From Bacteroidota bacterium (lineage in GTDB: Bacteria > Bacteroidota > Ignavibacteria > Kryptoniales > JAKASW01), in assembly GCA_023480735.1 (NCBI GenBank), contig JAMCXB010000072.1:1-47434 (forward strand): a stretch of DNA of 47,434 nucleotides, read 5' to 3'. This document shows, piece by piece, positions 14,685-45,574 of this stretch. Every line of letters starts with the position of its first letter. Position 1 is the stretch's first letter. Both the position numbers and the translations under genes were made by a program. A model generated the notes under the pieces. It searched no databases and had not been told where the DNA came from. It saw nothing but the letters and a program-made list of their open reading frames with translations.

Positions 14685-17600
14685 TTAGACTCCTTTGCTT
14701 GCCCTGCTAACTGAAATTTTAAACTTCTGCTTTTCTATTTCAACATCCTCTGTGTACTCTCCCTCTTTTATAGTCGTGGAGAAATCCACAGCTAAGGTCT
14801 CCGATCTTATGTAATCGGATAATCTTGTTACGGCTTCAATGAACTCCGCCGGACAGTCGACGTACACCCGTATTCTGTCCGTGACTTCAAAACCTGCATC
14901 TTTCCTGAGATTTTGTATTCTATTTACAAATTCTCTCGCTATTCCTTCATTTTTGAGATCATCGTCCAGCTCTGTATCCAAAGCAACGGTGAGCGTGCCA
15001 TCGGACTCGACCAGCCAACCCGAAAGCTCCTGGCTGAATACTTCGACGTCGGCAAGTATGACATGGAATGCCTTGCTGTCGGTGCGAAGGTCTATCGAAC
15101 CCTCCTTTTCAAGTTTCTTGATGTCCTTACTCGTCATAGACTTTATGAGTTCGGCAACCGTCTTAACGTCCTTACCGAACTTCGGACCGATCGATTTAAA
15201 GTTGGGTTTGGCTCCCTTGTTCACGAACTCGGAGTCATCGTCGACGTACATTGCGGACTTGACGTTGATCTCGTCGAGAATAACACTCTCGACCTGTGAA
15301 ATAGTTTCGCGCATGTGCTGAGACGAGACCGGGATAATGATTCTTCTGAGCGGCTGGCGCACTTTTATGTTATACTTCGCGCGCATCGCCCTCGAAAGAT
15401 ATACGATCCTCTCCGCGAGTGCCATTCTCTCTTCGAGGCTCGAATCTATCTCGTCTTCCCCCACTTCGGGATAATTAGAAAGGTGAATAGACTCATGCGG
15501 GTCGAGTCCGGTTACTCCGTTCAGATATCCGTAAAGCTGTTCGGAAAGGAACGGGGCGAACGGCGACATAAGTTTCGCAACCGTCACGAGGCATTCGTAA
15601 AGCGTCTGGTACGCGGCGAGTTTGTCTTTCGCCATTTCACCCTTCCAGAACCGCCGCCTGCTGCGGCGGACATACCAGTTTGAAAGCTGGTCTATCGTGA
15701 AATCGGAAACGGCTCTCGCTGCTCTTGTCACATCATAAGAGTCCATCCAGCCCGCGTAGTCTTTCACGAGCGTATTCAAAACCGATATTATCCAGCGATC
15801 AATCTCGAGCCTCTCATCTACCGGGATCCTCGGCCCGGAATACGTGAATCCGTCTATGTTCGCATAGAGGCCGAAGAAGGAGTAGGTGTTCAGGAGCGTG
15901 CTGAAGAACTTCCTCTGAACTTCGACCAGGCCGCCCTCGTCGAAGAGTTTCGGCTTATGCGGCGGACTCGAGGTGACCAGGTACCACCGCACAGCATCGG
16001 CACCGTATTCAGAGACAACCTTGAAGGGATCAACCACATTCCCCTTCGATTTCGACATTTTCTGGCCGTCCTTGTCAAGGACAAGCTCATGGCTGATAAC
16101 GGTCTTGTAAGCCGGGCTTCCGAAAAGGAAAGTCGAAATTGCGTGCATCGAATAAAACCATCCCCGCGTCTGGTCGATTCCTTCGGATATGTAGTCGGCC
16201 GGGAAGTGGCTCTCGAACCATTCCTTGTTCTCGAACGGATAATGATACTGCGCAAACGGCATCGAGCCGGAATCGAACCACACGTCGATGAGCTCTGGCG
16301 TACGTTTCATCTCTCCGCCGCACTTCTCACAGGTCAGCGTGATACCGTCGACAAATGGCTTATGAAGGTCGATATCTGCCGCCACATTCCTTCCGAGCTT
16401 GCGGAGTTCCTCGACGCTCCCCACGGAATGAAAATGGCCGCATTTCTCGTTCGTGCAGACCCAAATGTTGAGCGGCGTCCCCCAGAACCGGTCGCGCGAG
16501 AGCGCCCAATCCTTGTTCTCCTCCAGCCAGTTGCCGAACCTTCCGACCCCGACTTCAGGTGGTACCCAGTTGATCGTTTTGTTCAACTCGACCATCTTGG
16601 CGGCAAACTTCGTCGTTGCGATGTACCACGACGCGCGCGCATAATAAAGAAGCGGAGTCTTGCAGCGCCAGCAGTGCGGATAACTGTGCGTGATCGTCTC
16701 CTTCTTGTAAAGAAGACCGCGGCGCTTGAGATTATCTATTATTTGGGGATCGGCTTCCTTGACAAACATCTCTGCGAAGTCCTTCACTTCCGGTGTCATG
16801 TTGCCGCTCTTATCGACCAGCTGCAGAAACGGTAGATCGTATGCCCTTCCGGTCTGGTAATCGTCTTCGCCGAAGGCGGGAGCGATGTGCACTATTCCGG
16901 TACCGTCGTCCATCGTGACAAAATCGCCGTGAGTAGCGTAGAATCCGCGCTTCGTTACCGGCGTGTAGTCGAACAGCCTTTCGTATTCCTTGCCCAGCAG
17001 ATGGCTTCCCTTGAACTCGGACTCGATCGAATAGTCGCCGTCGAGGATGCCGACCCTGCTTCTGGCCAGGATCAGGATCTGACCTTTGTTCTCGACCCTG
17101 ACGTAGTCTTCGTTCTTGTTTATCGCGATCGCCACGTTCGACGGAAGCGTCCATGGAGTGGTCGTCCACACCAGGAAGTAAGTGTTGTCCTCGCCTACAA
17201 CCTTCAGCTTGATGTAGATTGAAGTGTCCTTCACGTCCTGGTAACCGAGTGCGACTTCATGCGACGAAAGCGAGGTCTCGCAGCGCGGGCAGTACGGCTG
17301 GCTCTTGTATCCCTTGTAGATGAGTCCCGCATCGAAAATTTTCTTCAACGCCCACCAGACAGACTCGATGTAATAATTCTCACAGGTGATGTAGGCATCG
17401 TTGAGATCAACCCAGTAGCCGATCCTCTCGGTCATTACCTCCCAGTCGTCCTTGTATTCGAAGACAGATTTCCTGCACAGCGCGTTGAACTTCTCTACGC
17501 CGTAGTCGACGATCTCATCTTTGTGCTTTATGCCGAGTTTCTTCTCGACTTCAATCTCAACCGGCAGCCCGTGAGTATCCCATCCGGCCTTGCGATGAAC

Positions 17601-17840
17601 CTGGTACCCGCGCATTGTTTTGTAACGGCACACCAGGTCCTTCAACGTCCGGGCCAGTACGTGATGTATTCCCGGTCGTCCGTTCGCCGTCGGCGGTCCC
17701 TCATAGAACGTAAAATTCGGCTTCCCCGCCCGCTCGCTGACGCTTCTCTCGAAAATCTTGTTCTTCTTCCAAAACTCAAGGACCTCGTGCTCAAGATCGG
17801 AGTATTTGATTTTATCGCTAATCTCTTTGAACTTGCTCAA
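14685..17840 (-). CDS. ileS: Isoleucyl-tRNA synthetase, long (type 2) form
   Basis: 1051 residues, class Ia aminoacyl-tRNA synthetase that charges tRNA-Ile. The HIGH-equivalent is GRPGIHHVLAR (residues 54-64), and KMSKSKGN lies near residue 595. A CP1 editing domain lies between them. Zinc-binding Cys pairs appear in CWRC, CTNEKC and CEKCGG, followed by the anticodon-binding domain and a C-terminal extension. The length and the GRPGIHH and WFDSGSMPFAQ motifs match the eukaryote-like IleS2 group rather than the roughly 930-residue IleS1 group. IleS2 enzymes are generally insensitive to mupirocin; that property is inferred here. Confidence 0.96.
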   Translation of the reverse strand: MSKFKEISDKIKYSDLEHEVLEFWKKNKIFERSVSERAGKPNFTFYEGPPTANGRPGIHHVLARTLKDLVCRYKTMRGYQVHRKAGWDTHGLPVEIEVEKKLGIKHKDEIVDYGVEKFNALCRKSVFEYKDDWEVMTERIGYWVDLNDAYITCENYYIESVWWALKKIFDAGLIYKGYKSQPYCPRCETSLSSHEVALGYQDVKDTSIYIKLKVVGEDNTYFLVWTTTPWTLPSNVAIAINKNEDYVRVENKGQILILARSRVGILDGDYSIESEFKGSHLLGKEYERLFDYTPVTKRGFYATHGDFVTMDDGTGIVHIAPAFGEDDYQTGRAYDLPFLQLVDKSGNMTPEVKDFAEMFVKEADPQIIDNLKRRGLLYKKETITHSYPHCWRCKTPLLYYARASWYIATTKFAAKMVELNKTINWVPPEVGVGRFGNWLEENKDWALSRDRFWGTPLNIWVCTNEKCGHFHSVGSVEELRKLGRNVAADIDLHKPFVDGITLTCEKCGGEMKRTPELIDVWFDSGSMPFAQYHYPFENKEWFESHFPADYISEGIDQTRGWFYSMHAISTFLFGSPAYKTVISHELVLDKDGQKMSKSKGNVVDPFKVVSEYGADAVRWYLVTSSPPHKPKLFDEGGLVEVQRKFFSTLLNTYSFFGLYANIDGFTYSGPRIPVDERLEIDRWIISVLNTLVKDYAGWMDSYDVTRAARAVSDFTIDQLSNWYVRRSRRRFWKGEMAKDKLAAYQTLYECLVTVAKLMSPFAPFLSEQLYGYLNGVTGLDPHESIHLSNYPEVGEDEIDSSLEERMALAERIVYLSRAMRAKYNIKVRQPLRRIIIPVSSQHMRETISQVESVILDEINVKSAMYVDDDSEFVNKGAKPNFKSIGPKFGKDVKTVAELIKSMTSKDIKKLEKEGSIDLRTDSKAFHVILADVEVFSQELSGWLVESDGTLTVALDTELDDDLKNEGIAREFVNRIQNLRKDAGFEVTDRIRVYVDCPAEFIEAVTRLSDYIRSETLAVDFSTTIKEGEYTEDVEIEKQKFKISVSRASKGV

Positions 17841-20233: not shown

Positions 20234-21574
20234 TCACATCTTCTCTGCCTCAGTTTCTATTTGTGGCGTTTCAGTTACTTCCGTTTCGGTATCTCTGAAA
20301 GGCACAAGCCATGAAATCAGAAACGAAGGTATAGTTGCTATCATGACCCAGATGAAAAAGTCTTTGTATCCGAGAAAGTCACTCAAGTATCCGCTGAACA
20401 TCGCGGGAAGGTTTGTACCAAATACAAGTATCGCTCCTCCAAATGCATAGTGGGCCGTCTTGTATTTTCCGGGCGCGACCTGCTGCATGATAAACAGCAC
20501 CATCCCGACAAATCCGAAGCCGTAGCCGAAGTACTCGATGACACAAGCCACACCAATTACAACGGTATTGACCGGCTGCGTAACTGCGAGAAAAGCATAG
20601 GCTGCGAAAGGTACGTTGAAAAAAGCGCAGAGCGTTAGGAGAGATTTCTTGAGACCACGCCGGGCAGTATAATAACCCGCAAGGATAGAACCCAGGATAA
20701 ATGCGATCGGTGGGAACACCCCGTAAATCACGCCTATCTCTTCTAGCGGTAGACCGAGACCTCCCTTCACTCTTGGCGCGCGCAAGAAGAGAGGAAAGAT
20801 CTTGATCCCCTGTCCTGAGGCAAATTGGTAGAGAATGAGGAAACTGATACCCCACCAGATATATTTTTTTTGAAAAAAGGTCTTCACCACGTTGCGGAAG
20901 ATATCCAACGTCTCTTCAAACGTCTTCACACGGGCTGAAGTACCGCCTGTAGGAAGCATTTTCACATGGTACAGACTTGTAAGAACCATAAATGCTCCGA
21001 ACAGGATCATTACGACCATCCATCCTCCCCTCACGCCGATCCTTACTTCGAGATAGCCGGCAAGCATTACAAACACTCCCTCAGACAGAACTTTCCCGAC
21101 GTTATAGAAGGCACCCTGCCACCCGACATATTGAGATTGCTCTTTCTCCGAGAGCGTATTTATGTAGATGCCGTCTGCAGCAATGTCATGGGTCGCGAAG
21201 TTGAAAGCGATTATGGTGAAGGCAATAAGAGACAATACAAAGAAATCGGGGAGCTTCAGGGTTAAGGAAAGCAGACCGAGACAGATTCCGCCGAAAAATT
21301 CCGTAACTACCACAAAATACTTCTTGGTCCTGAACATTTCCAGAAAGGGTGCCCAGAGAGGCTTTAGCATCCAGGGCCACGCGGCCAGGGTTGTGAAGAG
21401 CGCAATCTGACTATCAGGAATTCCAGGAAGTCCCTTGCTCTTCAACATCAGACTGAAATCCTTGTACATGAGAACCGACACAACGTTCACGATCACAAAG
21501 GGAAGACCTTCTGCCGTGTATAGAGTTGGCATCCAGAAGGCGGGGTTCACTTTTTTTAAGGTCGTATTGGACAT
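20234..21574 (-). CDS. MFS transporter, AmpG-like
   Basis: 446 residues with about twelve hydrophobic segments. The N-terminal region MPTLYTAEGLPFVIVN and the internal HDIAADGIYI fit the AmpG/acetyl-CoA-transporter branch of the major facilitator superfamily. The first half has TLAAWPWMLKPLWAPFLE, the conserved substrate-path loop of AmpG relatives. I start at the ATG at 21574; an upstream ATG at 21670 adds 32 hydrophilic residues without a ribosome-binding site. It is the most downstream gene of the island, next to a sugar kinase fusion, so it may carry an oligosaccharide. The substrate is unknown. Confidence 0.82.
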   Translation of the reverse strand: MSNTTLKKVNPAFWMPTLYTAEGLPFVIVNVVSVLMYKDFSLMLKSKGLPGIPDSQIALFTTLAAWPWMLKPLWAPFLEMFRTKKYFVVVTEFFGGICLGLLSLTLKLPDFFVLSLIAFTIIAFNFATHDIAADGIYINTLSEKEQSQYVGWQGAFYNVGKVLSEGVFVMLAGYLEVRIGVRGGWMVVMILFGAFMVLTSLYHVKMLPTGGTSARVKTFEETLDIFRNVVKTFFQKKYIWWGISFLILYQFASGQGIKIFPLFLRAPRVKGGLGLPLEEIGVIYGVFPPIAFILGSILAGYYTARRGLKKSLLTLCAFFNVPFAAYAFLAVTQPVNTVVIGVACVIEYFGYGFGFVGMVLFIMQQVAPGKYKTAHYAFGGAILVFGTNLPAMFSGYLSDFLGYKDFFIWVMIATIPSFLISWLVPFRDTETEVTETPQIETEAEKM

Positions 21575-21884
21575 CCATCTTTCTTTCACTTGTCTGGGTG
21601 AATGTTGAGCTATATTGTTCTCCAAATTAATTGGGGATCCTCCCCGTACCGCTTGATTGGGGAGGGACATTGGGAGAATACACGATTCTTATTTTACTCG
21701 GAAATGAGTATTCAATCTGCTTAGTCGGCTTGAATGGGGTTTGATAGTTCCGGTTAATAGCGAGCGACTTTGGCGCGCCATTAGGTCTCTTTCGCTTCGT
21801 TGCATCAACGGCCATAATGTCAGCACCGGTCTTGAGCTTACTCAATTGATCCACCAACTATCCGCGAAGGCGAGATTCATAAAC
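21575..21884. other. Gap between the kinase fusion and the MFS gene
   Basis: 310 bases. Its only open frames are the unsupported N-terminal extension of the MFS gene and a short low-complexity frame. No clear terminator or promoter consensus is seen. Confidence 0.35.
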
Positions 21885-24023
21885 TCAGTCATCAGTTTCT
21901 GCCTGATTTTGTTGGTTAACATCTATGGTAACTGTCGTGCCTGGCATCAAGTTCTCAAATGCGCTCGCCGCTGCACCGAGTATCCCCGCCTCCTTATTGA
22001 AATCAGAAAATTCAATCAGAAGAGTATCTGCTGTCGGCTTGATGGCACGCTGCCGTACTGTCCTCTTGAATGCTTCGAAGTAGGGGGCACCCAATCCAGC
22101 CAGGCTGCCGGAAATGACAATCATTGACGGATTGAAAATATTCACGAACCCGGCTACGGCGATACCCAGCTTTTCACCCGCTTTGTTCAACAAATCGACG
22201 GCGACAGGATCTCCCGATAGCGCTGCTTCACCGATGGCCTTGGCCGAGAGGTCATCTCGCGCGCCCAATCCGGACAATGGAGGGAACTTTTCCCTGGCCC
22301 ATCTCACTAGACCCGATCCCGAAGCATATAATTCTACACAGCCGCGATTCCCACAGGAACACTTCGGACCATCGGCATCGACGCTGACATGTCCTATCTC
22401 AGATGTAAAGTTGTTCTGTCCCCGTAGGAGTGTCCCATCAACATAAATACCTCCACCGATACCGGTACCTAATATAATGGATATGAAATTGTCTACGGAC
22501 TTCGCTTTCCCGAATATTTTCTCTGCCACCGCTGAGCAGTTGCCGTCATTGTCGACAACAACAGGAATGTCAGTAGTACGCTCGATAACTTTTCTAATAT
22601 TTACATTTTGCCATCCAGGTATCAGGGATGTCGAATCCACCACTTCGCCTTTTTCGAAGTTCACTCTTCCGCCGGTACTCACCCCTATTCCGGCCGGCAA
22701 GTACCCACTCGACTCACAGAATTTCAATCCTTCTGCGACTCTCGCGACGACCGAGTCGAGAATCACCTGTTTATCCGAGGGCATTTCTTCCTGTTTCCAA
22801 TGCAGAATCTTACCGGACTCGTCAACGACTCCCATTCTTAGATTGGTCCTGCCTAGATCGATGGCGATTGCTGCCCGGTTCCGGGGCACGAAAATGCAGC
22901 GAGGCGGAGGAGGCGGATAGGCTTTGATTTGGTAAGTACCTTTGACGAAATGATAGATATCGTCGTAGAATTCCCGTTCAACCGGGTCTGCGTGACTGTA
23001 CATTCTCTCCAGCGAACCGACTCCCTGAAAATGCGCACAGGCGGATTCATTCATGTAGCCATATTTCAACCCCGCATTGAGGTACTCCCTAAATCGGATA
23101 TGCCTCTCGTTCGTGATCGCAATCGGCTCGTCCAGTTCCATGTAGTATTCCATCTCTAATCCGGCGTTGCATCTCTTTGCTACTGCTGATGCTACTTCGA
23201 TGGTCTTCCCTTCTTTGTAGAATAAAAAGTTCGGCTGAAGAAATGCCATGTCAAAATAGTAATCCTGGTAGCTCTCAAGAAGATGAAAATTGTAAGTGGC
23301 ATAGAACGGGATCCATAGAAACTTGAGTCCCTTGGAGTTGACATGTTTCTTCAACTCCTTCAAGAGAACGTGGTCATCCACGTCCCACGACCTGTAAACC
23401 GTCTCAAATATCCAATACACGCCGAGCAAATTCAGGTTCTTGTACCGCTCTTCCTTCCATCTTCTGACAGTTTGTTCTACAAACCAGACCTCTGACTTCA
23501 GGCGCGAATCTGTAGCTTGGGAAATGTTTTGCCCCTTTATTGAAAAATTCAGATTGGGGCTGCCTGCTTCTAATGCCCCGAACGACTCCTGAGTGATATG
23601 CGGATACGGAAGGGTGAGGACTACGTTTCTCCTATGCTGAGGAGAACCGATACTCGTCGACAGCTCCTCTATCGTTTCATCGAGTGTCTGCAACGAACCG
23701 CCCTCACCGAAATAGGACTCCAGAAGTTCCTCCCAATCAATCTTGTCTGAAGGAGTTGGGGAGCAAACCGGGAAGAAATCACCTTCGCCAGCCATCGACT
23801 TACCTAAATTCACATCTGCGACGTAATCCGTTCCAGATTTGGATTTCGGATTTATAAACAAGAATGAATCATAAAACCAATCATCTGCATGACCATCGGG
23901 ATCAAGGTGCGCAGCATAGTACTTCAATTGTTCTTTTGTCCACGGCTTGACCGCATCACCATAAAGAAGCACCAAATGTCTTAGGTAATTGAATTCAGGT
24001 TGGTCCTGTTTAAGGTATGACAT
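21885..24023 (-). CDS. DUF4855 domain fused to a ROK-family sugar kinase
   Basis: 712 residues in two parts. Residues 1 to about 365 match DUF4855, a putative TIM-barrel glycosidase-like domain: RHLVLLYGDAVKPWT, DDWFYDSFLF, GVYWIFETV, LKFLWIPFYATYN and FDMAFLQPNFLF. A Pro-rich linker (about 370-378) leads to a complete ROK kinase (about 385-700). That part has the ATP loop IAIDLGRTNLRMG, ILGTGIGGGIYVDG near 520, EIGHVSVD, and the zinc motif CSCGNRGCVE near 554. There is no helix-turn-helix, so it looks like a kinase rather than a ROK repressor. There is no signal peptide, so it is cytoplasmic. AGGAG precedes the ATG. Both halves are full length, so this is a genuine fusion rather than a frameshift artefact. 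The sugar is unknown. Confidence 0.85.
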   Translation of the reverse strand: MSYLKQDQPEFNYLRHLVLLYGDAVKPWTKEQLKYYAAHLDPDGHADDWFYDSFLFINPKSKSGTDYVADVNLGKSMAGEGDFFPVCSPTPSDKIDWEELLESYFGEGGSLQTLDETIEELSTSIGSPQHRRNVVLTLPYPHITQESFGALEAGSPNLNFSIKGQNISQATDSRLKSEVWFVEQTVRRWKEERYKNLNLLGVYWIFETVYRSWDVDDHVLLKELKKHVNSKGLKFLWIPFYATYNFHLLESYQDYYFDMAFLQPNFLFYKEGKTIEVASAVAKRCNAGLEMEYYMELDEPIAITNERHIRFREYLNAGLKYGYMNESACAHFQGVGSLERMYSHADPVEREFYDDIYHFVKGTYQIKAYPPPPPRCIFVPRNRAAIAIDLGRTNLRMGVVDESGKILHWKQEEMPSDKQVILDSVVARVAEGLKFCESSGYLPAGIGVSTGGRVNFEKGEVVDSTSLIPGWQNVNIRKVIERTTDIPVVVDNDGNCSAVAEKIFGKAKSVDNFISIILGTGIGGGIYVDGTLLRGQNNFTSEIGHVSVDADGPKCSCGNRGCVELYASGSGLVRWAREKFPPLSGLGARDDLSAKAIGEAALSGDPVAVDLLNKAGEKLGIAVAGFVNIFNPSMIVISGSLAGLGAPYFEAFKRTVRQRAIKPTADTLLIEFSDFNKEAGILGAAASAFENLMPGTTVTIDVNQQNQAETDD

Positions 24024-24413
24024 TTATTCTCCTGTGAATAAAATACTTGTAGAGACGGACAGAGGCGCTGTAGTGTAGAGGTCATGTGAGACCAAACGTT
24101 TCTCCTCATAGGAAGAGTCTTCTCGTTCAGGCCCACCACCCGTACAGTTGGCGAGGGCATCCTCCCAAAGGGATCCATTCGGAAGGGATGTGCCGCTTGG
24201 AGTCGCCTCAAACAAACCAATGATAGCACCCGCCGACACTGAGCTTGTCGACGCAACCCACACATCACCTGAAGAATCAACCGCGCAAAGGTAAGGCGCA
24301 ACCAGCGACTTGGCGATACTGAGACCCATGGAGCCGGTGCAAGCGAAAGTGCTCGTCTCCGAGAACGTGGCTCGGCTCACCGGGGTTATCCAGTGAAACA
24401 ATTGCCGCTTCAT
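24024..24413 (-). pseudogene. Possible remnant of a beta-propeller protein
   Basis: The middle of this open frame reads LVAPYLCAVDSSGDVWVAST, then SVSAGAIIGLFEATPSG. This resembles one blade of an NHL/SMP-30-type propeller. The first 25 and last 40 residues look random, and the stop abuts the start codon of the kinase fusion. I treat it as a decayed fragment in the 430-base gap; it could also be chance. Confidence 0.25.
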
Positions 24414-24452: not shown

Positions 24453-25769
24453 CTACTTCCCTTCAAGTCCCACTTTCGCGTATTTCCACCAGCCATACTT
24501 GTCAAGATGGACTACATCGAAAATCATCACCCCGTCCGTGAGCCTCAGATCGGCCTTGATCGCTCGTACAAATTGTTGAGGATTATGCTTGTCCAAATAT
24601 TGTTGGACATACAGGCTTCCGTAAGCTGGTACAACTCCCTTTATTACTCTCATCGCGATTTTGGCTGAGCCGTCTACCGAGTACCACCAGTAGTAAGAAG
24701 GTTTCTTTGTCGGATCCGGAGAGGGAGTATGGGATTTGATTGCTTCTTTCTCGGTCACGTCATAGAAATATGTCCCCACAAACATCTTATCGAGAAGCTG
24801 AGCATATCCTGTGCGATAGTAAGTTGGATCCGCCCAACTGTAGTGCTTGGCAGGATTGTAAGTTCTGCTTGCCCAGTTCACACCCATCTGGTAATAAATT
24901 GGGTACCACGCGCCGACGTAATCGGCATACACCACTTTGGGGTCGATTTTCTTGACGCTGTCGCGAGCTTGGCGAATGAAATCATAGATAACCGCCGAAT
25001 GCCACTCGATCCATTTCTTAAAGAGCGGACCCGGAACCTGTGTCACCTTGCCATCGGGTGATGTTCTGTAAGTAAAAACATCCTGCGGCCACTTCTCGAT
25101 TTTATGACCAATGAATTTTTCAAAAGCTACTCGCGAGGCATTGCTGAAATCGGTCTGATCAATGATTTTGCTGCTCGGGTATCGAGCTCCGTCAAGAACT
25201 ATTCCGTCAGGTTTGTACATCCGCAGCAATTCCTGCAACAGCGAAATCTCATACGCGCGAACTTGTGGGAGAACAGGGTTTACGTAGACCGCTGCTCCTC
25301 CGGAAATCTGGCTCATGGGCACTATACCTTTGGGAGTGTAGGCCTGACATTGCCAGTTCGGATGTGTGGTATACAAAATCCCTCTATGGTCTTTCTTGTC
25401 CCCTTCCTGGAACTCACTCATCCCGAAATAGACCTTGAGACCGAGCTTGTGTCCCTCTTTCAAGACAACTTCGGGAAAGTTGTAATTGTCAGGCCTCCTG
25501 AATCCGTGCAACTCGTGCAGCACAGGTGCGATGTGACTGGGGTAAAACACATAACCATCGTATCCTTTCAAACCAAGAATAACGTCTGTGAAACCGGTGG
25601 ATTTGGCGTCCTTGAGTACGCGATCCACACCTGCTTTGGTTCCTAAACGTTTGAAATTCGCATGGCCATCGAGCCAAAGAAAGGCTTCCTTTCCGTGAGC
25701 AGGCTTTGCGCTTACAAGCAGGTTCCCGAAGGTCAACAAAAGAACGAGTGCAACTAGGATGCGACGCAT
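24453..25769 (-). CDS. Secreted glycosyl-hydrolase-like TIM-barrel protein
   Basis: 438 residues with a signal peptide (about 1-26, ending near HGKEAF). The body resembles the glycosyl-hydrolase-like family 10/DUF187 group: FLWLDGHANFKRLG at the start, DVILGLKGYDGYVFYP, KEGHKLGLKVYFGMSEFQ, MYKPDGIVLDGARYPSS with a likely acidic active-site residue, and YADYVGAWYPIYYQMGVNW. GAGGAG before the ATG supports the start. It lies between a T9SS-exported protein and the kinase fusion. It lacks a sorting domain, so it is probably periplasmic. The substrate is not readable from the sequence. Confidence 0.72.
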   Translation of the reverse strand: MRRILVALVLLLTFGNLLVSAKPAHGKEAFLWLDGHANFKRLGTKAGVDRVLKDAKSTGFTDVILGLKGYDGYVFYPSHIAPVLHELHGFRRPDNYNFPEVVLKEGHKLGLKVYFGMSEFQEGDKKDHRGILYTTHPNWQCQAYTPKGIVPMSQISGGAAVYVNPVLPQVRAYEISLLQELLRMYKPDGIVLDGARYPSSKIIDQTDFSNASRVAFEKFIGHKIEKWPQDVFTYRTSPDGKVTQVPGPLFKKWIEWHSAVIYDFIRQARDSVKKIDPKVVYADYVGAWYPIYYQMGVNWASRTYNPAKHYSWADPTYYRTGYAQLLDKMFVGTYFYDVTEKEAIKSHTPSPDPTKKPSYYWWYSVDGSAKIAMRVIKGVVPAYGSLYVQQYLDKHNPQQFVRAIKADLRLTDGVMIFDVVHLDKYGWWKYAKVGLEGK

Positions 25770-30706: not shown

Positions 30707-32848
30707 TCATTTGGTTTCCTTTCCAAACATGATTCTGACGGTCTGGGGCATCACGTCATTGATGGTGGAGCTTTTGGTAAGTGTCCAAAAGCTTTGGTTA
30801 TTCTCCAACAATACCTCCGCGGGTACGATCCAGCCTTGTATCCATCCTGTATTGGTAGACCATGCTCCCCATCCCGCATCGCCGTTAGCCCCCCAGTAAT
30901 CCCATTGACCATAGTCGAAGGTTCTAAACCAGGCTCCATCAAGAGCTCTATGTTTGGCACTTTTAACCTGGATGCGGATAAGAAAATCGGCAAGCTTCTT
31001 TTCGGCGGCCATGTACTTCTTGTTTTTTGTGGCATGCGCGGCCTCATTCAAGGCAAATAAAGCGAAGTTGCAGGTATATAGCATGTCCGACACCGGTTCA
31101 CCGTTCCTGAATATCAAGGGTTCCTCTGCCGTTCCGTAAGCCTGGTTCGATTTCGGCGGAGGGCAGAATCCTTTCCCTGGTGTACCCAGTTCTTCCCTTA
31201 TGGCACCGCGGGGGGCCTGATACTTTAACATGCCGGAGACCACCTCATTCAACCATTTTCTGTGCTCAGGTGTATTTTGTATTCGCACCAACCAGGCAAG
31301 AGGTAGAATCATACGAGCCCTTTCCTGCTGCAATCCGTTCGTCCAAATCCAGTTCTTCGGATAATCTTGCATGGTGGTCCTGATTGCTCTTTCCGTTCTT
31401 GTCAGAAGAGGCTTGTAACCTGTTCTGCTATACAGCCAAAGGTAACAGGCCCACATCCAAGCTTCGAAATGTGGGTGTGGATTGATGATATTCCTGTTCC
31501 AGTAGTATTTCCATCCGTGCTTTAGAAGCTTATTCTGGTCAATCCGGTCACCCCGAAATCCTTCCCGACCGGTAGTTCTGAAATTGGCCACAATGCCTTC
31601 AGCAATTTCCTTATCCCACCGGTGAGTTTTCATGTAGGCTTCTGCACCTATGAGTCCCAGCAGAAGGTGAGCATTGTCGTCTCCATAAAAAGCCCCTGGA
31701 GCGGTGGTGGCCCATCCGATGAGGCCAAAAGCCGGACTTCGTCTGTCGTTCTTGAGACCGGACCTGAGATTGGAATGATAGAAGACATAATTGGTCAGGT
31801 TGGAGGCGTACTTGTAGTAGTTCTTCTTATTCAGAAAATGTCCCGCGGCGGCAAGGGCATAGGCAACCTGCCCCTCGTTGTCAGCCCGTACCCAATAGTG
31901 AACCGGCTGCGAACCATTATAATAAATCTGTGAAGTCTGTCCTTCGAAAATTCCCAAAGAGCCATTTCCGTTCGGCCAGTATTTGCCGACAGGAGACGGG
32001 ACGTTTCCATGATCCTTCACGTACAGTTTCTCCCAAGTGGAGTCGACAAAGAAATGTCCGTTGAAAAGCCACTGCACGCCTTTTCGTATTGATGTTCGCA
32101 TTGCATTCGGTGCCAGAGGTTCGTTTCTTGCGTACATCGGAGAAACATACGAAAGCCAATGATGCAGCTCTATGTTCTTATCTCCGGATACCCATGACAT
32201 TATATACTGCCACACGATCTTCCAGTAGGGTTCCGGTTGATAGCGACCGGTTGCAAAACTACTTAACCGGGTCATTGCCACAAGCATATTCCCTTTCCGA
32301 AAAAGGAGCGGATAGGTCTTGACACCTTTAAGTCCGTATGCAGCCTTATCGAGGCCAGCCACCTTGCCCAAAACTATCAGTGGATCCTTAACGTTTACAG
32401 GTATTACGTGACAACCGTTGATCCCCAATATGCTCATCGGTCCAAGCTTATCTCCGAATACGTCTGATACAACCACTCCTCTGTCCAGCATTGGCGCGAC
32501 TACGGTATCCTGGATACTCAACCCCGGCAAAGACGCAGGATATTCTATATAAAGTCTGAGTTCCTTTTCTTTCGCGATCTCCAGCAGCCTGTTACTGATC
32601 GACGTCTTCTGTTTCGGATAAGAGTCAGCCAGTATTAAAACCCCCGTTCCCTTCTTCGCGTGCGTAATAGCCTCTTGAGGATTGCGGTAGAGGTTCACGC
32701 CTATGTCATTCTTGCGCAAAAGAACATACAAGTCGCTGTTTGTATTACCGCAGAGATTTATTCTCGCTCTTTCACTTTGAGAATAAACCATCGTCGAAAC
32801 AAAGAGCGAAAAAACAATCAAGCTGCTGATAAAGTAACTTACTTTCAT
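30707..32848 (-). CDS. Secreted (alpha/alpha)-barrel protein, glycosidase-like
   Basis: 713 residues with a signal peptide (about 1-23, ending VYSQSE). Residues 30-210 look like a Rossmann or glutamine-amidotransferase-like region (GVLILADSYPKQK, SILGINGCHVIPVN). From about 240 to 690 the protein has repeated helical hairpins rich in Trp and Tyr (VRADNEGQVAYALAAAGHF, FEAWMWACYLWLYSRTGY, FDYGQWDYWGANGDAGWGA). These are typical of six-hairpin glycosidases. I cannot name a CAZy family. It lies between GHL10 and GH172 enzymes, so a role in glycan breakdown is likely. Confidence 0.65.
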   Translation of the reverse strand: MKVSYFISSLIVFSLFVSTMVYSQSERARINLCGNTNSDLYVLLRKNDIGVNLYRNPQEAITHAKKGTGVLILADSYPKQKTSISNRLLEIAKEKELRLYIEYPASLPGLSIQDTVVAPMLDRGVVVSDVFGDKLGPMSILGINGCHVIPVNVKDPLIVLGKVAGLDKAAYGLKGVKTYPLLFRKGNMLVAMTRLSSFATGRYQPEPYWKIVWQYIMSWVSGDKNIELHHWLSYVSPMYARNEPLAPNAMRTSIRKGVQWLFNGHFFVDSTWEKLYVKDHGNVPSPVGKYWPNGNGSLGIFEGQTSQIYYNGSQPVHYWVRADNEGQVAYALAAAGHFLNKKNYYKYASNLTNYVFYHSNLRSGLKNDRRSPAFGLIGWATTAPGAFYGDDNAHLLLGLIGAEAYMKTHRWDKEIAEGIVANFRTTGREGFRGDRIDQNKLLKHGWKYYWNRNIINPHPHFEAWMWACYLWLYSRTGYKPLLTRTERAIRTTMQDYPKNWIWTNGLQQERARMILPLAWLVRIQNTPEHRKWLNEVVSGMLKYQAPRGAIREELGTPGKGFCPPPKSNQAYGTAEEPLIFRNGEPVSDMLYTCNFALFALNEAAHATKNKKYMAAEKKLADFLIRIQVKSAKHRALDGAWFRTFDYGQWDYWGANGDAGWGAWSTNTGWIQGWIVPAEVLLENNQSFWTLTKSSTINDVMPQTVRIMFGKETK

Positions 32849-33147: not shown

Positions 33148-34227
33148 TTAATTTGTTACGAGCTCGTTCTTTGGCGGCAGTTTTGGAAAAGGATTGTGCG
33201 GCTCCGTCTGGTACCAATACACAACGGAAGAAATACGATCCTGTCTGGGACGATATTTGCCATCATCTCCCCACCCCAAATCCTGTATCGTAACTCTCAA
33301 TGTCTCTTTGAAATGTATCGGATCAGTGATATGCCACCTGTACATACCAAACCGCTCCATTACGTTATAATGTCCATCTCCGCGTATTACCTGCGGCAGC
33401 CCGCTATAAGGGCTGCAGAATTCAGTGTACTCAATAGTTTCTATCCCGGGTGCCTTTTCCTTTTTTGTGTCAAAACTATAAGAGCCACAGAAATAATCTT
33501 CGGCACCCGTCCCGCAGATCGTCGGGAACTGGACATCCCCGTCTATAAAAAACTTGATTTCACCTTCTCCCCACCATCCGTTGCTGCGGGTTTCCAGCGC
33601 GAGGTATGTCCCCACATATTGACCTCTGCCATGGATATTTTCAACGAGTACATAATCCTTTTTATAAGAAACAGGATCCTCCTGCTTAAACTCTGCGTGA
33701 AAATAAGCTGCATCGTTTGGAACCTCCGCCAAGACATAATCAATCTGGTAATACAGTGTTACATCGTGGTCGCTAATGTTCTCCAACGTAATCCTGCATT
33801 TCTTATGAAAAGGCATCGGCCAGTAACAATTGAAACCGTTGCCGGGATTCACGGCTACAGCCAAAGACTGCAAAGGCGAATATTGTCCCCATCCCATGCA
33901 AAAGAAATCTCCTACCGGACATTCTACCGAAGGCTCTTTCTCATCATCCCAATAAATTCTAAAAATCAAAAGCCGCCAATTACCGGTAGCGGTCATCCAG
34001 ATATGTTTGATCTCACCAGGTCCATCCACTTCTGCCAACGTAAAAGTTGATTTCGAATCTATCTTAACACTTGGGCTCACTTTCCACCCTTGGCCCAGGT
34101 TCTTGGCAGCGTCAGCGCCAGTACCCTCTGTTGCCATGCCGCCCTGTCCCTTCGCACCTGTAAAGTTTTCCGGACTGATGGAACGGCTCACAGCATCAGA
34201 TAGCTTGTACAAGTTGTCCAGCGTCAA
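33148..34227 (-). CDS. GH172 (DUF2961) glycoside hydrolase
   Basis: 359 residues forming the double jelly-roll of DUF2961. Motifs include GEIKHIWMTATGNWRLLIFR, FFCMGWGQYSPLQS, NCYWPMPFHKKCRITLEN, SNGWWGEGEIKFFIDGD and CGTGAEDYFCGSYSF. The last two hold acidic residues that are candidates for the catalytic pair. Characterised GH172 enzymes act on alpha-D-fructofuranosides and alpha-D-arabinofuranosides, including D-arabinan. The gene starts at TTG with GGGAG four to five bases upstream. There is no signal peptide, suggesting a cytoplasmic enzyme working on imported oligosaccharides. It fits well with the isomerase and pentulose kinase genes of the same island. Confidence 0.88.
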   Translation of the reverse strand: MTLDNLYKLSDAVSRSISPENFTGAKGQGGMATEGTGADAAKNLGQGWKVSPSVKIDSKSTFTLAEVDGPGEIKHIWMTATGNWRLLIFRIYWDDEKEPSVECPVGDFFCMGWGQYSPLQSLAVAVNPGNGFNCYWPMPFHKKCRITLENISDHDVTLYYQIDYVLAEVPNDAAYFHAEFKQEDPVSYKKDYVLVENIHGRGQYVGTYLALETRSNGWWGEGEIKFFIDGDVQFPTICGTGAEDYFCGSYSFDTKKEKAPGIETIEYTEFCSPYSGLPQVIRGDGHYNVMERFGMYRWHITDPIHFKETLRVTIQDLGWGDDGKYRPRQDRISSVVYWYQTEPHNPFPKLPPKNELVTN

Positions 34228-34933
34228 TTGTCTCCCTTTCGAATTAGTATGTTAGAATTGAGGTCTTTACATAGCCTAATAGACCCCCGAGTTACTTTTG
34301 TGGTTCTGTGCGTTATTTCTTTGATCCCCACTTCATTGGTTCCTTTCATTTGTAATTTCTCTACTTCGCGCGGTGTTGATGTATCTGTCTACTGCATTCT
34401 GACCGAGCACCGTTTTCAGCAGTGTGTCCACCGAGACCTTATAAACTTACGATTAGTCGTTTGCGTGCCGGTAGACTTTCCTTGTCCAAGGCGTACGCCT
34501 TTGGCGGAAATCTCTCTCCCGCCTTTTTTCGGCGGGCATCTGGACATTTCCTTATCGCATTTAAGTTCCTGTCCATCAGCACAATCAGCTCTGCTCCGCT
34601 TTTTGATCCACTTTGCCTCATCGGTTCCTTGAACGGCCCTACGCATGGTCCCTACGGTTCTTGTTCTCTACGCTCACAGTTACTGTTTCTGTTTCTGTCT
34701 TCTTTCACCAGTGTATCATCTTGCAGCAGGCACTCCTTAGCCGTTGACAGTCTCGGCTCGCTAATCCTTGGGAAGAGCTCATATGAGTTCTCTCCCAAAG
34801 GGATCCCTTTGGGATAACTCCCATATGAACTCTCCTTCCGAACCCTTTGTCTGCCTTCTCTCTAATTCTTTCTCGTTCATCTGTCTCCTCAGGTTTTCTA
34901 AAAAATTAACTCCACCTGAGGCGACAAATGTCG
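34228..34933. other. Large non-coding gap rich in palindromes
   Basis: 706 bases with no convincing protein. GGCGG (34503-34507) pairs with CCGCC (34519-34523) followed by six T, a plus-strand terminator-like hairpin. CCCGCC (34518-34523) also pairs with GGCGGG (34531-34536). A nested palindrome lies at 34778-34832. Short open frames on both strands have random-looking composition. It separates the beta-helix gene from GH172. Confidence 0.5.
34778..34832. repeat. Nested perfect palindromes
   Basis: A 22-bp perfect palindrome centred on the BamHI-like GGATCC (34793-34814, core CCCAAAGGGATCCCTTTGGG) is enclosed by CATATGAGTT and AACTCCCATATG arms. Together they can form a long cruciform or hairpin. 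It lies about 100 bases downstream of the stop of the beta-helix gene and might act as its terminator, a protein-binding site or a remnant of a small repeat element. Confidence 0.6.
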
Positions 34934-36670
34934 TTATTTAATCAGCATCATCTTCTTCGTCATGACGTTTGCGCCTTGCTGGAGGGTATAGAAGTACACT
35001 CCGCTTGCAAAGTTGTCCATGCTGACGTTATATATATATTCGCCCGGCGCTTTGTCACCTTGAGCCACAACTTTCACGAGCTGTCCGAGTACGTTGTAGA
35101 TCTTGAGTCTCATCATCCCCGCCTTGCTCAGTGTAACCTTGATAACGGTCGAGGGGTTGAACGGGTTCGGATAATTGTTGCTCAGATTGAATTTCGTTGC
35201 GACCTGTGCGGGCTGCTGCTTGACAGCGGTAAGACCGGTAAACCAGTACGGGTCGCCAAGCGGTTTCCCGTCGGTGCTGCCGTTTTTCACTGTTGCATTT
35301 GTATATTGCATGTCAGTAGCCTCGGGCAGCGGCCAATACGGAATCCAGTTCGAAGTACCCGTGGGTATAGACTGTATCTGATATCCCCAGCCAATCGTGG
35401 GGGATTGGTGTGTCCTTATCAACGTGAAGTAAGGCAGCAAACCGACTCCGTAGTTCCCGCCGCCTTGTAATACATTCGCAAATGAAGAGCCATAATCAGG
35501 ATCGACTCCTATCATGTTGCCTGACGCCGTGAAGCCCGGCCAATCCGTTTTGTCATTGAACATCTGCTGTGTACGAGCGTTCATCCACGACGGGGTGTAC
35601 AGCGAATCCGGAGATCCTGCCGTAACGGTGTCGTTCCAGGCTGTCCAGAAATTCGTTACGGCCGACGGCTCGTAGAAATCGTTGTTCTCCACTTGCACAA
35701 CTCTCTTCGCCTCGGCAAGCACCCTCCAATTCGATTTAGTGGAATCCCCCGGATCAAACACCTTGTCACTGGCTACGTTCATCGTATCAAAAGATATAAT
35801 CGCTGGAGTCGCCGCGGTGAACTCCTCATCCCACCATGGATATTCAGATTTCAGTTCACCTCCTACAAACGCGCCGTAAAAGAGGTTGTTATCCATTTTC
35901 GCATTTTCAGCAGCCATAATAAAGAACGGTTGCATGAACGAAAACACAACACTGTTATGAGAAAAGTCGATATAGCGCACAGGATACTTTGCAACAAGTT
36001 CAGCAGAATTGTCGCAGAAGAACGTATTATAATTCATAACGATCGTATCGACGGCAGCAATCGCCGGCCATAGGGGCTCCAACGCTGATGCATCTGTCCA
36101 AGTTATAGGATCAACATTGTCCCTAAAGTCACAATTCGTAATAAAGTAATCACCCCAGTTCCCGGTGTAAACGATTGCACATCCACTAACATCGCTGAAA
36201 ATAACATTATCAACGTGGAGTTTTACAGAATCCCCGGAAACCACGATACCGTAAGCGGGATGGACGAAAGAACCATCTGTGGATAAACCCTCGATAAAAA
36301 GATTCTTGAATTTTGCTACTAACCCGTTTCGATTCAGGTTGAACAAAGTGCCAGGTATCGAACCATCACTTAGAACACCCGGTTGTATGCATGGCGGTCG
36401 ACCGTCAGAGCCTAAGACTCCCAAAACTGTGATGTTCGACCTGGGTGTTATCTGCCCCAGGAATACATAGGTCGTGTCCAATGAAATGAGCTTGTATACG
36501 CCATGAGCCTGCTGGCCACTTGCGGTAGTATCACTGTTGATGGCCTGATCAAGATAGGGTCCGCTCGCGTAAACGACAAGCGTGTCGTTCCCCGCAGCTA
36601 ATGCTTTGCGTGCAGGTGCAAACCATACTGTCATCGCAATAGCGACCGATGCGATAAATACACTTCTCAT
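34934..36670 (-). CDS. T9SS-exported right-handed beta-helix protein
   Basis: 578 residues from the ATG at 36670, which has AAGGA nine bases upstream and begins the signal peptide (about 1-27, ending ALAAG). A longer frame to 36769 lacks start signals. The central part (about 40-330) has pectate-lyase-like coils: NITVLGVLGSDG, AKFKNLFIEGLSTDGS, VDNVIFSDVSGCAIVYTG, FITNCDFRDN and IDFSHNSVVF. The C-terminus from FNLSNNYPNPFNPST is a T9SS sorting domain ending MTKKMMLIK. It is a surface or extracellular polysaccharide-binding or lyase-like protein. I see no clear catalytic motif. Confidence 0.78.
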   Translation of the reverse strand: MRSVFIASVAIAMTVWFAPARKALAAGNDTLVVYASGPYLDQAINSDTTASGQQAHGVYKLISLDTTYVFLGQITPRSNITVLGVLGSDGRPPCIQPGVLSDGSIPGTLFNLNRNGLVAKFKNLFIEGLSTDGSFVHPAYGIVVSGDSVKLHVDNVIFSDVSGCAIVYTGNWGDYFITNCDFRDNVDPITWTDASALEPLWPAIAAVDTIVMNYNTFFCDNSAELVAKYPVRYIDFSHNSVVFSFMQPFFIMAAENAKMDNNLFYGAFVGGELKSEYPWWDEEFTAATPAIISFDTMNVASDKVFDPGDSTKSNWRVLAEAKRVVQVENNDFYEPSAVTNFWTAWNDTVTAGSPDSLYTPSWMNARTQQMFNDKTDWPGFTASGNMIGVDPDYGSSFANVLQGGGNYGVGLLPYFTLIRTHQSPTIGWGYQIQSIPTGTSNWIPYWPLPEATDMQYTNATVKNGSTDGKPLGDPYWFTGLTAVKQQPAQVATKFNLSNNYPNPFNPSTVIKVTLSKAGMMRLKIYNVLGQLVKVVAQGDKAPGEYIYNVSMDNFASGVYFYTLQQGANVMTKKMMLIK

Positions 36671-36712
36671 AATAGGAATCCTTTTGTTTGTGTTTCTGTC
36701 TTTTCCAATTTC

Positions 36713-36729
36713 TCCCGATAACGTCGGGA
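36713..36729. terminator. Small hairpin between TonB receptor and beta-helix gene
   Basis: TCCCGA and TCGGGA pair around a 5-base loop in the 250-base gap 36671-36920. There is no T-run, so it is weak. The rest of the gap shows no gene. Confidence 0.25.
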
Positions 36730-36920
36730 TCGCCCGAACGAGATGCCATACTCGACAAGCATTCCCCACTTAGTGACCACTCTTGCCATAGCACTTAATT
36801 CCACGAATCTAACATCACCTCTCTTCCTTTTTTGTTTGCGAATTAGATAACCGCCGCCAATGTGGCCGTGGTCGCCCTTTGTGGCGTCCCTCATTTGTAC
36901 GCAACTCCTAGATTTTCCCA

Positions 36921-39900
36921 TCACAACTTCCATCGAAATCCCAAATCAGCAGTGAATCCGTAGTCCTCTATCGCGGTAGGAGGACCACCTTGAATCACCT
37001 GCACATCATTAGAAGAATTTATGTTATTGAGGTCCGTATATACTTCAAGCCCGTCCCACGGCAGCTTCTGTCTCGCGGCAATGTCCCACCGCCTGTATGC
37101 GGCAGTGTATCCCCTCAACTGGGGCCACTGACTTGGCGAAGTGAAAATATTGGCCTGATAAACCATGGTGGCCCGGATTGAAAACCCCTCATAATCAAAT
37201 CCGAGGGAAAGATTGAATATGTCATCCGGCTGATCAACAAGTCGGTCGGTAAAAGAAGTGTCAATGTACTGGAGAGTACGACCAGTTGATACGGAATACA
37301 CGTACGGATATTGTGCCTTTGATTTCGTATGTGTGTAATTAACATCAAGCACCAATCCCGATAGGATACCGGGCAAATACCAAAAATGAGTTTGCCAGTC
37401 GAGTTCTATTCCATAGACTTCATTTAGATAAGGATTGTTTTCGGTTGTGTAAACAGAATAGGTAGTGTTAGGATTGAAATTCGCCAGATTCCGAGGCAGA
37501 TATTCCAGTGCAGCTGTCCCTTTGACAAAAAATTGCCACGAATATACCATATCGCGAATCTGCTTGAAAAACCCGTCCGCGCTGAACAGTCCAATCGTGT
37601 TGTCATAAAAGGAAACAGCAGCATCGTAGTTAGTCGAATAAGCCGGAACCAATCCACTGTTATTCCATCCGACTATAATATCGGACAGGTCGATCCTCGG
37701 CACGAAATCGCTGTAGCTCGGATAAGCCAATGTATTTGTATAGGAAAGCCGCATATCAGCCCATGAAACCGGGTCATATCTCAGGCTTATGTCTGGCAGC
37801 AAATAGCCGCGGTACCTGGTGATAGTCGTATCATAATGATTGTACGCCCATTGTGGCTCAGGACTCGTCACGCCGGCTACACCAGTGTAGGATGTCTGGA
37901 ACGTCTGAAATCTTGCCCCACCGACAACTGTTACTTGATGACCGACTTTCAGAGTCGCCATCGCGTAAACTGCGTTTGGATTCTCATGTCCGGAATAGTT
38001 CGATATAGTCGACTCATGGTAATCGTGGTAATAGATTGGCGTAAGAGTCTGCTCATTTTTTTGCAGAAGGGCTGCCAGCTGCGATATCATGCCGAGATTC
38101 AATGGCGCAGCCATTTTGTAATTGCCATTTAGAAACGTCCCATAACTGAAGTTCGGATCCAGAAAGTCCGTAATTGGTATGAGATAATTACCCATTGGCA
38201 AATTGAAGTGCGAGTTGATCAGATTATCACCGCTCAGCGATCCACCCGTGTCAAACATTCCAAGATCTGCACCATACAGATACGATCTTGTTACATACCG
38301 AGATTCTCCTCCGAATTTTATCACTGCGGAAACCGCATCCGAGAAAGTAATATTACTTTTCAGATTGAGTTTTGCCGTGAACGCGCGCGCTCTGGAAAAG
38401 CTGTTGGTATTATTAACGCCGAAGAGGTACGCCTCAGGCAAATTGGTGGTCGCTGCATCTACAACCGCCTGAGGGCTGATATTCCACATACCGCTGAACT
38501 GATTCAGACCTGCAGACAATTGCGAGAACGAGACTCCCCAGTTGTCGGGCGACTTGGTTTCCGAGTACGTGTGGCCAAGTTCTATATCCAAGTTAAAAAC
38601 AGGCAACTCTTGCTTAAAATCGAGGACGTCTGAAATAGTGTTCAATATGTCGCGTGAACCTGACAGGCCATAAAAAAGCATGTTGGAGCCGATACTGAAG
38701 TCCTCTGACCGTTGTTGAGCATTAGTAGTGCCGGAACTCAGGAAATTCATCAGTTTAAGTGACCCGCCAGAGTACTCATAATCCAAATCAAGTGCACCGT
38801 TGTAAAGAAGCTTGTCCCTGGGAATATCAAAAAGGGTCACATCATAAACGGCGTATTGAGATGTGCTATTCCCGAAATGGGTATACGCGCTCGACAACTC
38901 GTTCGAGGTAAGGTTCATTCTCTCAACATCTACTTGCGCGAAGATACCTAATTTGTCATTCAACAGCCTATCCTGTACGCTCCCAACATACTTGTAATTG
39001 TTGTATTTGTTATAGGCGTCTGGAAGATTATTGTATCCCCCCTGAACAAGCAGGCTATATTGTGGTACACCCGGTTTCTTTACTTCCGCCTCCCGCATGT
39101 CAAAATTGACAACCCCACCAATCACATTGGCGTCCATGTCCGGCGTGACCGTCTTCGACACCTGTATTCCTTCCAGCATATTCGATGAGATCATGCTCAG
39201 GTTGGTGCTCCTGTCATTCGGATTAGACGCTCCCATCTCGATCCCGTCAATCGTGATCTCATTATACTGTGGCGCCATCCCGCGGATTATCACTTTGTAT
39301 CCTTCCCCACCGCTCCTCAGGACAAAGACTCCCGGCAATCTCCCCACGGATTCCGCAGCATTCTCATCGGGCAGCTGCCGAATCTTTGCTGCAGAAACCG
39401 CGTTCATGATGTTGTCCGATGAAAGCTCCTGGTTGATAGCTTGCGCTTGACCGCTCGCTTGTGCAGTGACAACAACTTCCTTCCCCTTTACTCCGACAGG
39501 CTTCAGCTTCAAGTCCTCTGTGAGTTTCCCCCCTTCCAGCACTTGCACGAAGATTTCACGAGATACGTAACCGACATAACTCACACGGATGACATAACCT
39601 CCTGAAGGTATGTTCGGGATTGAATAATTGCCGTCCAGGTCAGTTGAAGCTCCCATGCTCGTTCCTTTCAACAGGACGTTCGCACCCGGCAGCGGGTCTC
39701 CGGTCTGCGCATCGAGGACTTCTCCGCGGATCTCCCCACTCAACTGATTACCGCCGCTCCTCTGCGTAATTACGATATACCTCCCTTTCAACGCTGTCCA
39801 GCTCAAACCTGTCCCTACGAAAACCTGATTAAGTGCATCTGCGAGCGTCACATGATCGGCAAACACGGTAATTCTCTTTTCAACGGGGACATCTTCCCTG

Positions 39901-41305: not shown

Positions 41306-41392
41306 CACATGTAATACGATTGACAGCGATGATTCCGCCACTCAAGCACGGAAATATTTCTGTTGCGAGACTCGACTGGAGGCAAAGGTAGA

Positions 41393-41965: not shown

Positions 41966-42063
41966 TATTGACTCCGACTTTCTTGAGGGAGGGTATGTAA
42001 AATTCGTGAGCTGACCATACTGAAACGAATGTTGAGCTACTTTGTCGATTTCGATTGCCTGCG

Positions 42064-43701: not shown

Positions 43702-43744
43702 AAGTTTTACCGCTGTTCTCCCTAAATGACTGCGAATATAGTGA

Positions 43745-45343: not shown

Positions 45344-45527
45344 CTCACTCTCTTTTTTTGCATGTGATCTTTATACAGCATCAGTTCTTGTTTTCTTACA
45401 TTATGTGTCTCAACTTGTACCATGATGGTCATCCCTGGCCCCTGATTGATGACGTCAACTGCATCTCTCGACCCCTTTCCAGTTTTTCGTCTTTCAAAAG
45501 CATTCGAGTAGAGGCACTGACGTAGAA

Positions 45528-45543
45528 TGATAAGCGTTTATCA
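45528..45543. promoter_or_regulatory. LacI-family operator upstream of the isomerase gene
   Basis: TGATAAGCGTTTATCA is a 16-base inverted repeat with one mismatch. It matches the site at 46578-46593 except for one base. It lies in the gap between lacI and the isomerase, about 185 bases before the isomerase start. Confidence 0.75.
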
Positions 45544-45574
45544 AAAATACAAAAAAGAAGATGCGGTTCACCGA

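Follow-up and report, generated by a model that had tools for sequence, protein, structure and literature searches.

A DUF4855 domain fused to a GNE-like ROK kinase in Bacteroidota: a candidate two-step enzyme of ManNAc catabolism

What might a protein do that carries a DUF4855 domain and a sugar kinase in a single chain? The question is raised by an open reading frame in a 47,434-nucleotide stretch of DNA from a Bacteroidota bacterium, referred to in the following as the window. A preliminary description, made from the sequence alone, had read this frame as a putative glycosidase-like barrel joined through a Pro-rich linker to a complete, zinc-containing ROK kinase without a signal peptide, and had proposed a new arrangement in which one cytosolic enzyme releases a sugar and then phosphorylates it. 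The reading that we favor, with a probability of about 0.52, is that the fusion is a cytosolic, catabolic two-step enzyme in which DUF4855 would release ManNAc and the ROK domain would phosphorylate it; this is a joint figure for the kinase and the barrel, given because the two assignments are not independent. The features of the locus are collected in Table 1.

Table 1. Features of the fusion gene and its immediate neighbors, in window coordinates.
Feature	Position	Strand	Basis
DUF4855-ROK fusion gene, 712 aa	21885..24023	-	Single open frame; full-length relatives 52–78% identical
Shine-Dalgarno-like AGGAG	24029..24033 (+ strand numbering)	-	5 bases before fusion ATG; read from sequence
DUF4855 domain, residues 18–357	22953..23972	-	Pfam PF16147, E 1.5e-66
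Glu207, candidate acid/base	23403..23405	-	Three residues past strand 4 (197–204); invariant in 35/35 DUF4855
Glu290 and Glu292, strand 7 (288–293)	23148..23156	-	Glu292 candidate nucleophile (role inferred)
Pro-rich linker, residues about 366–383	22875..22928	-	Sequence
ROK kinase domain, residues 386–686	21966..22868	-	Pfam PF00480, E 7e-63
Arg392 in DxGGT phosphate loop	22848..22850	-	The other 7 fusions have Gly
Arg453 = GNE Arg477 (ManNAc contact)	22665..22667	-	Alignment; role from available text of PMC5458393
Asn492-Asp493 = GNE Asn516-Asp517	22545..22550	-	Alignment; roles from available text of PMC5458393, PMC2742894
Glu542, His545, zinc Cys555/557/562, Glu564 = GNE Glu566, His569, Cys motif, Glu588	22332..22400	-	
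AmpG-like MFS transporter, next gene downstream, candidate importer	20234..21670	-	MFS_1 E 1.2e-16
GHL10-DUF4985 putative glycosidase, upstream	24453..25769	-	

The gene starts with an ATG at 24023–24021, preceded immediately by an in-frame TAA, and remains open to a stop codon ending at 21885, so that the continuous 712-residue frame and the linker of the preliminary description both stood up. Pfam recognized the N-terminal half as DUF4855 with 225.2 bits (curated cut-off 27), covering positions 3–312 of the 313-position profile, and the C-terminal half as ROK with 213.3 bits (cut-off 22.9); with these scores, chance similarity of either domain was ruled out. No signal peptide was visible by inspection, the DUF4855 domain beginning at residue 18 and the relatives starting alike, and the protein is probably cytosolic. 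The fusion was the only DUF4855 gene detected in the window genome, where five other ROK matches were found. The TAA that abuts the fusion ATG ends a 129-residue open frame (24024–24413, minus strand) in the same reading frame, which had no Pfam match and no counterpart among the open reading frames compared in related loci.

Among 100 relatives searched, full-length matches were found at 78, 67, 65, 65, 60 and 52% identity in genomes G011, G002, G003, G009 (two copies) and G098, and a survey of the class added a fusion in G477. With the window copy, the architecture thus comprised eight genes in seven genomes of three families. A frameshift between two genes, or an assembly chimera, was rejected because the same architecture recurs in other genomes at 52–78% identity; the DUF4855-ROK fusion is real and makes one polypeptide. 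The linker was similar in the genus relatives and different in G098 and G477. Between the window copy and its nearest relative, G011, dN/dS was 0.075 for the DUF4855 half and 0.089 for the ROK half, at a dS near 1.5, and between G003 and G009 the values were 0.105 and 0.082, respectively, indicating that both halves are under purifying selection. DUF4855 itself is sparse in the surveyed class and phylum, with matches in 13 of 391 genomes of the class survey and five of 395 drawn from the phylum. In no plasmid record did a match extend over 80% of the query, and the listed plasmid matches were to ROK only or mostly to ROK.

In a tree of 35 DUF4855 domains, 11 cytosolic-type sequences (eight fused, three lone) separated from the other 24 with support of 100/99. 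The cytosolic-type proteins start only a few residues ahead of the domain, with M-x-Y; none of the 24 others had a kinase, and several of them had signal-like N-termini and stretches resembling a T9SS tail. The C-terminal stretch of the lone copy in G002, PPVPPRSTFVPKRR, resembles the fusion linker, and this gene therefore probably descends from a fusion whose kinase was lost. Three changes are needed to place the fusion trait on this tree, possibly a single gain with two losses. Genes of the non-cytosolic type were also seen in series (L086–L090, in G002 and G001) among GH3, GH20, DUF4434, phosphoesterase and TonB receptor genes; the series in G002 shares a contig with the fusion, about 18–53 kb away.

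By sequence, by tree and by predicted structure, the kinase half is closest to the ManNAc kinase of human GNE. In a sequence search of the PDB, chains of the human GNE ManNAc kinase came first (E-values from 4.7e-59 to 2.6e-58), the first glucokinase appearing at 2.8e-44, and the best fold matches of the full-length fusion model were 2yhy and 2yhw, both human GNE ManNAc kinase; this model was of moderate confidence (pLDDT 72.0, pTM 0.62), and the relative placement of its domains is not interpreted. In a tree of 29 ROK sequences, which left out L007, L030 and L031, the eight fusion kinases and GNE formed one clade with support of 99/98, GNE being a single sequence on a long branch and the only verified ManNAc kinase included.

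The residues of the sugar site point the same way. According to the available text of PMC5458393, ManNAc is coordinated in GNE by Arg477, Asn516, Asp517, Glu566, His569 and Glu588, of which Asn516 and Asp517 also have roles described in the available text of PMC2742894. Measured against that list, the window kinase keeps all six contacts, as Arg453, Asn492, Asp493, Glu542, His545 and Glu564, and so do seven of the eight fusions; in the eighth, that of G098, the position of Asn516 holds His. The zinc site claimed in the preliminary description was also found, the motif CxCGxxGCxE occurring in the window copy as CSCGNRGCVE, with Cys555, Cys557, Cys562 and His545 all present. All eight fusions have the Arg477 equivalent, which the 22 other ROK domains compared all lack, and the motif STGGRV (SSGGRV in G003) followed by ST was common to the eight fusions and GNE and likewise missing from those 22, a comparison that leaves out L030 as well as L017, L032 and L037, which have no stop-free reading on either strand. 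On the other side, among NCBIfam models, the glucokinase subfamily TIGR00744 ranked best at 205.8 (cut-off 260.35); the two NanK models NF003461 and NF047821 scored below it and under their own cut-offs (119.4 vs. 283 and 114.5 vs. 450). The ROK half quite probably phosphorylates ManNAc.

For the N-terminal half, an AlphaFold2 model was built from an alignment of 35 rows (mean pLDDT 88.1, pTM 0.90). It predicts an eight-stranded barrel, with strands at residues 16–21, 53–57, 132–138, 197–204, 234–237, 259–263, 288–293 and 329–333. Like Glu207, Glu292 and Asp52 were invariant in all 35 sequences, Glu290 was present in 90% or more, and the invariant acidic residues hold across sequences down to about 26% identity. 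Model and alignment together place glutamates at the ends of strands 4 and 7, a layout found in many retaining glycosidases (clan GH-A). Clan GH-A enzymes usually have an Asn before the acid/base Glu; the window domain has no Asn ahead of Glu207.

The glycosidase-like barrel of the preliminary description was thus upheld as a predicted barrel with glutamates after strand 4 and in strand 7, and found no specific likeness to a known glycosidase family in PDB sequence and fold searches. The sequence search of the PDB found no relatives of DUF4855, and Foldseek placed tryptophan synthase alpha chains first (TM 0.35–0.39), with a GH10 xylanase at rank 20 (TM 0.42); matches of this kind show a generic barrel and no specific tie to glycosidases. 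A relationship to the neighboring GHL10, DUF4434 or NanE proteins was rejected in profile comparisons (probabilities below 1%), a weak test with one sequence each on the second side. The open-licence papers searched yielded no described function of DUF4855 and no mention of PF16147. DUF4855 is most likely a glycoside hydrolase, as suggested by the layout of the model and the company of its genes rather than by homology, and we lean slightly towards ManNAc as the sugar that this predicted barrel would release.

The gene neighborhoods bear on the identity of the sugar. A NanE gene (PF04131) adjoins seven of the eight fusion genes (those of G002, G003, G011, G098 and G477 and both of G009), the window copy being the sole exception. 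The fusion and NanE genes are convergent in G098 and G477, and the NanE gene beside the second G009 fusion contains an in-frame stop. Because genus members that lack DUF4855 have NanE as well, only a NanE gene next to the fusion carries information, not the presence of NanE in a genome. The window genome encodes NanE (elsewhere), NagA and NagB, all scoring over their cut-offs. No NagB over the cut-off was found in G098, and neither NagA nor NagB in G477, leaving the lower pathway incomplete in these two genomes by these models. The gene directly downstream of the lone DUF4855 gene of G067 encodes an epimerase of the AGE family, which scored 423.5 bits with the N-acyl-D-glucosamine 2-epimerase model (cut-off 600). 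We dropped a rule by which fusions would go with NanE and lone DUF4855 genes with AGE, DUF4855 and AGE being side by side only in G067: the nearest AGE in G033, 52% identical to that of G067, is on another contig among other genes, and the lone copy in G002 has neither NanE nor AGE adjacent among the open reading frames compared.

The transporter next to the window fusion scored 102.5 bits against the AmpG model TIGR00901, under the cut-off of 350. A 79% identical AmpG-like gene lies three genes downstream of the G011 fusion, in the order fusion, NanE, DUF5009, AmpG-like, and relatives of the upstream GHL10-DUF4985 gene were found near the G011 fusion (74% identical) and the second G009 fusion (84%). 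E. coli DigH is a GHL10 protein that acts on peptidoglycan. Glycans of the bacterial cell wall may be the source of the sugar, to judge from the GHL10 neighbors, the AmpG-like transporter and the NagX/DUF5009-like protein. A ManNAc-GlcNAc unit occurs in teichoic acid linkage units, and by analogy such a unit would fit as a substrate of the fusion.

Other loci have a different upstream company. A permease gene and a hydantoinase/oxoprolinase-like gene lie upstream of the DUF4855 gene in G002, G009 (first copy), G098, G477, G067 and G033; on the G003 contig only the end of the hydantoinase/oxoprolinase-like gene is visible. The permease was present in seven of the 17 genomes searched, all seven with a cytosolic-type DUF4855, and had no match in Pfam or NCBIfam. 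The window genome (G000) and G011 have the fusion without this permease and have the AmpG-like gene nearby instead. The hydantoinase-like (HyuA-like) protein had caprolactamase subunit alpha as its top model, far under the cut-off. Together with an FAD oxidoreductase, the permease and the hydantoinase-like ATPase form a conserved trio upstream of cytosolic DUF4855 genes (L038, 4845–9974; also L041, L043 and L044), which may act on the same substrate as DUF4855. A GH38 gene of the alpha-mannosidase type was found close to the fusions of G098 and G477; in G067 such a gene adjoins a NanE-like gene. Downstream of the lone DUF4855 gene in G033, the reverse transcriptase gene of a group II intron was seen (L045, 6559–7950). 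A 713-residue protein encoded at 30707–32848 of the window (minus strand), without a credible Pfam match, is 68% identical to one encoded next to the second fusion of G009 (L042, 2538–4730), and it represents an undescribed family that recurs in fusion loci.

In the reading that we favor, a ManNAc-containing oligosaccharide would be imported by a dedicated transporter and hydrolyzed by the DUF4855 barrel, with Glu207 as one catalytic residue and Glu292 (or Glu290) as the other, freeing ManNAc. The GNE-type ROK domain would then phosphorylate the freed ManNAc with ATP to ManNAc-6-phosphate, which NanE would convert to GlcNAc-6-phosphate for NagA and NagB. The order proposed in the preliminary description, release and then phosphorylation, is plausible, and its unnamed sugar can be narrowed: it is most likely ManNAc because the kinase has a GNE-type signature and genes for NanE or an AGE epimerase lie alongside.

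The order of events could be the same and the sugar another one, DUF4855 freeing GlcNAc, another hexosamine or a hexose for the ROK domain, and NanE serving other traffic. The first rank of the glucokinase model in NCBIfam would suit this, as would the GHL10, DUF5009/NagX-like and AmpG-like neighbors, which are what one might expect beside an enzyme for scavenging GlcNAc or peptidoglycan. We consider it unlikely, however, since the Arg477 equivalent and the STGGRV...ST motif are common to GNE and occur in none of the 22 other ROK domains, and since the NanE that adjoins seven of eight fusions is needless for GlcNAc-6-phosphate. DUF4855 might also yield ManNAc by a reaction other than hydrolysis of a glycoside; it could, for instance, be a lyase that cleaves sialic acid or a related compound, or could act on a phosphorylated glycan. 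This would be in keeping with the lyase barrels (tryptophan synthase alpha) at the top of the fold matches and with the phosphoesterase genes near DUF4855 genes in G002 and G001. None of the 35 DUF4855 sequences shares an invariant Lys, which disfavors a Schiff-base aldolase of the NanA kind, and the secreted relatives, with their signal-like N-termini and in places T9SS-type tails, sit among glycosidase genes, where a glycosidase fits better; this alternative is quite improbable.

It is very improbable that DUF4855 is a non-catalytic, sugar-binding or regulatory module and that the kinase works alone. The domain is only weakly similar to any known enzyme fold, and a described activity was not found, as would be expected of such a module; yet invariant acidic residues persist at typical catalytic positions down to about 26% identity, and three genes encode DUF4855 alone, without the kinase.

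A separate question is whether the window copy is still fully functional. Its phosphate loop reads DLGRT, with Arg392, where the other seven fusions have DLGGT, making it the only copy to depart from DxGGT. The Arg392 codon is AGG, and all five genus relatives checked have Gly codons. The description of the kinase as complete therefore holds for its Pfam score and zinc motif and not for its phosphate loop; both Arg392 and the lack of a NanE gene beside the window copy had been overlooked. Given Arg392 and the lost adjacency to NanE, the kinase of the window copy may be weakened or impaired. A stronger version, in which the gene nears decay in the window genome, its kinase damaged by Arg392 and its partner genes gone, draws on the same substitution and on the absence from the window locus of the NanE and DUF5009 genes that lie between the fusion and the AmpG-like gene in G011. 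Decay is seen at the G012 locus, a remnant in which a kinase fragment runs into the end of NanE. We nevertheless find this version somewhat doubtful: the window fusion has an open frame, a Shine-Dalgarno-like site and dN/dS below 0.1 in both halves against G011, NanE is encoded elsewhere in the genome, and Arg392 may be a base-calling error in the assembly. In the G012 remnant (L048, 10387–12862; L016), the fusion kinase fragment is 62% identical to the window copy and passes without a change of frame into the final portion of NanE; the stretch opens with a CarboxypepD/TonB-like start.

The arrangement has its closest precedent in human GNE, the enzyme linked to GNE myopathy. Novelty was claimed too broadly in the preliminary description, since in GNE, too, a domain that makes ManNAc shares one chain with a ManNAc kinase; what is new here is DUF4855 as the N-terminal domain and the catabolic setting. 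The two proteins share a C-terminal ROK kinase of the same subgroup, with the zinc motif and the six ManNAc contacts listed in the available text on GNE, and, for the fusion presumably, an N-terminal ManNAc-yielding domain in the same chain. They differ in that the N-terminal domain of GNE is a UDP-GlcNAc 2-epimerase of sialic-acid synthesis, as given in the accessible part of PMC2742894, whereas the fusion has a DUF4855 barrel in a breakdown-type gene neighborhood. With the bacterial NanK-NanE pathway, the fusion shares the sequence of a kinase followed by NanE and NagA/NagB, and the adjacency of kinase and NanE genes. However, NanK is a separate protein whose ManNAc is supplied by sialic acid lyase (PMC5458393, available text), whereas the kinase described here shares its chain with a barrel that would release ManNAc, and it falls short of the cut-offs of the NanK models. 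The DUF4855 proteins of Bacteroidota polysaccharide-use loci have the same invariant Glu and Asp as the fusion, the identity to the secreted forms being 26–29%, and the 24 others in the alignment lack the kinase. One such protein, B. thetaiotaomicron BT0442, comes from the single paper found to name DUF4855 (PMC10434189, available text), which lists it near genes for DUF5009, a "family 10 glycosylhydrolase" and a phosphoesterase, the same gene company as in the fusion loci. The open-licence papers searched contained no DUF4855-ROK fusion.

Bacteroidota from the gut and from the environment have DUF4855 in their polysaccharide-use loci, and a fused kinase with a predictable sugar names a likely product of the domain, ManNAc, by which the function of the whole family becomes testable. 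Tentatively, at a little short of even odds, DUF4855 may be a new glycoside hydrolase family whose cytosolic branch hands ManNAc to a fused GNE-type kinase as a catabolic analogue of GNE. The domain arrangement of human GNE would then have a counterpart in bacterial catabolism, and the kinase half of the human enzyme would have bacterial relatives fused to a quite different ManNAc-producing domain.

Two further observations concern the window outside the fusion locus. A sugar-use cluster at 33148–46567 (minus strand) encodes a DUF2961 (GH172-type) protein, a protein with a T9SS tail, a TonB receptor, FecR, an FGGY kinase, a fucose-isomerase-like protein and a LacI regulator. The isoleucine-tRNA ligase at 14685–17840 (minus strand) scored 984.7 bits with the MupA model, for which the cut-off is 1900, and 976.3 bits with the general IleS model.
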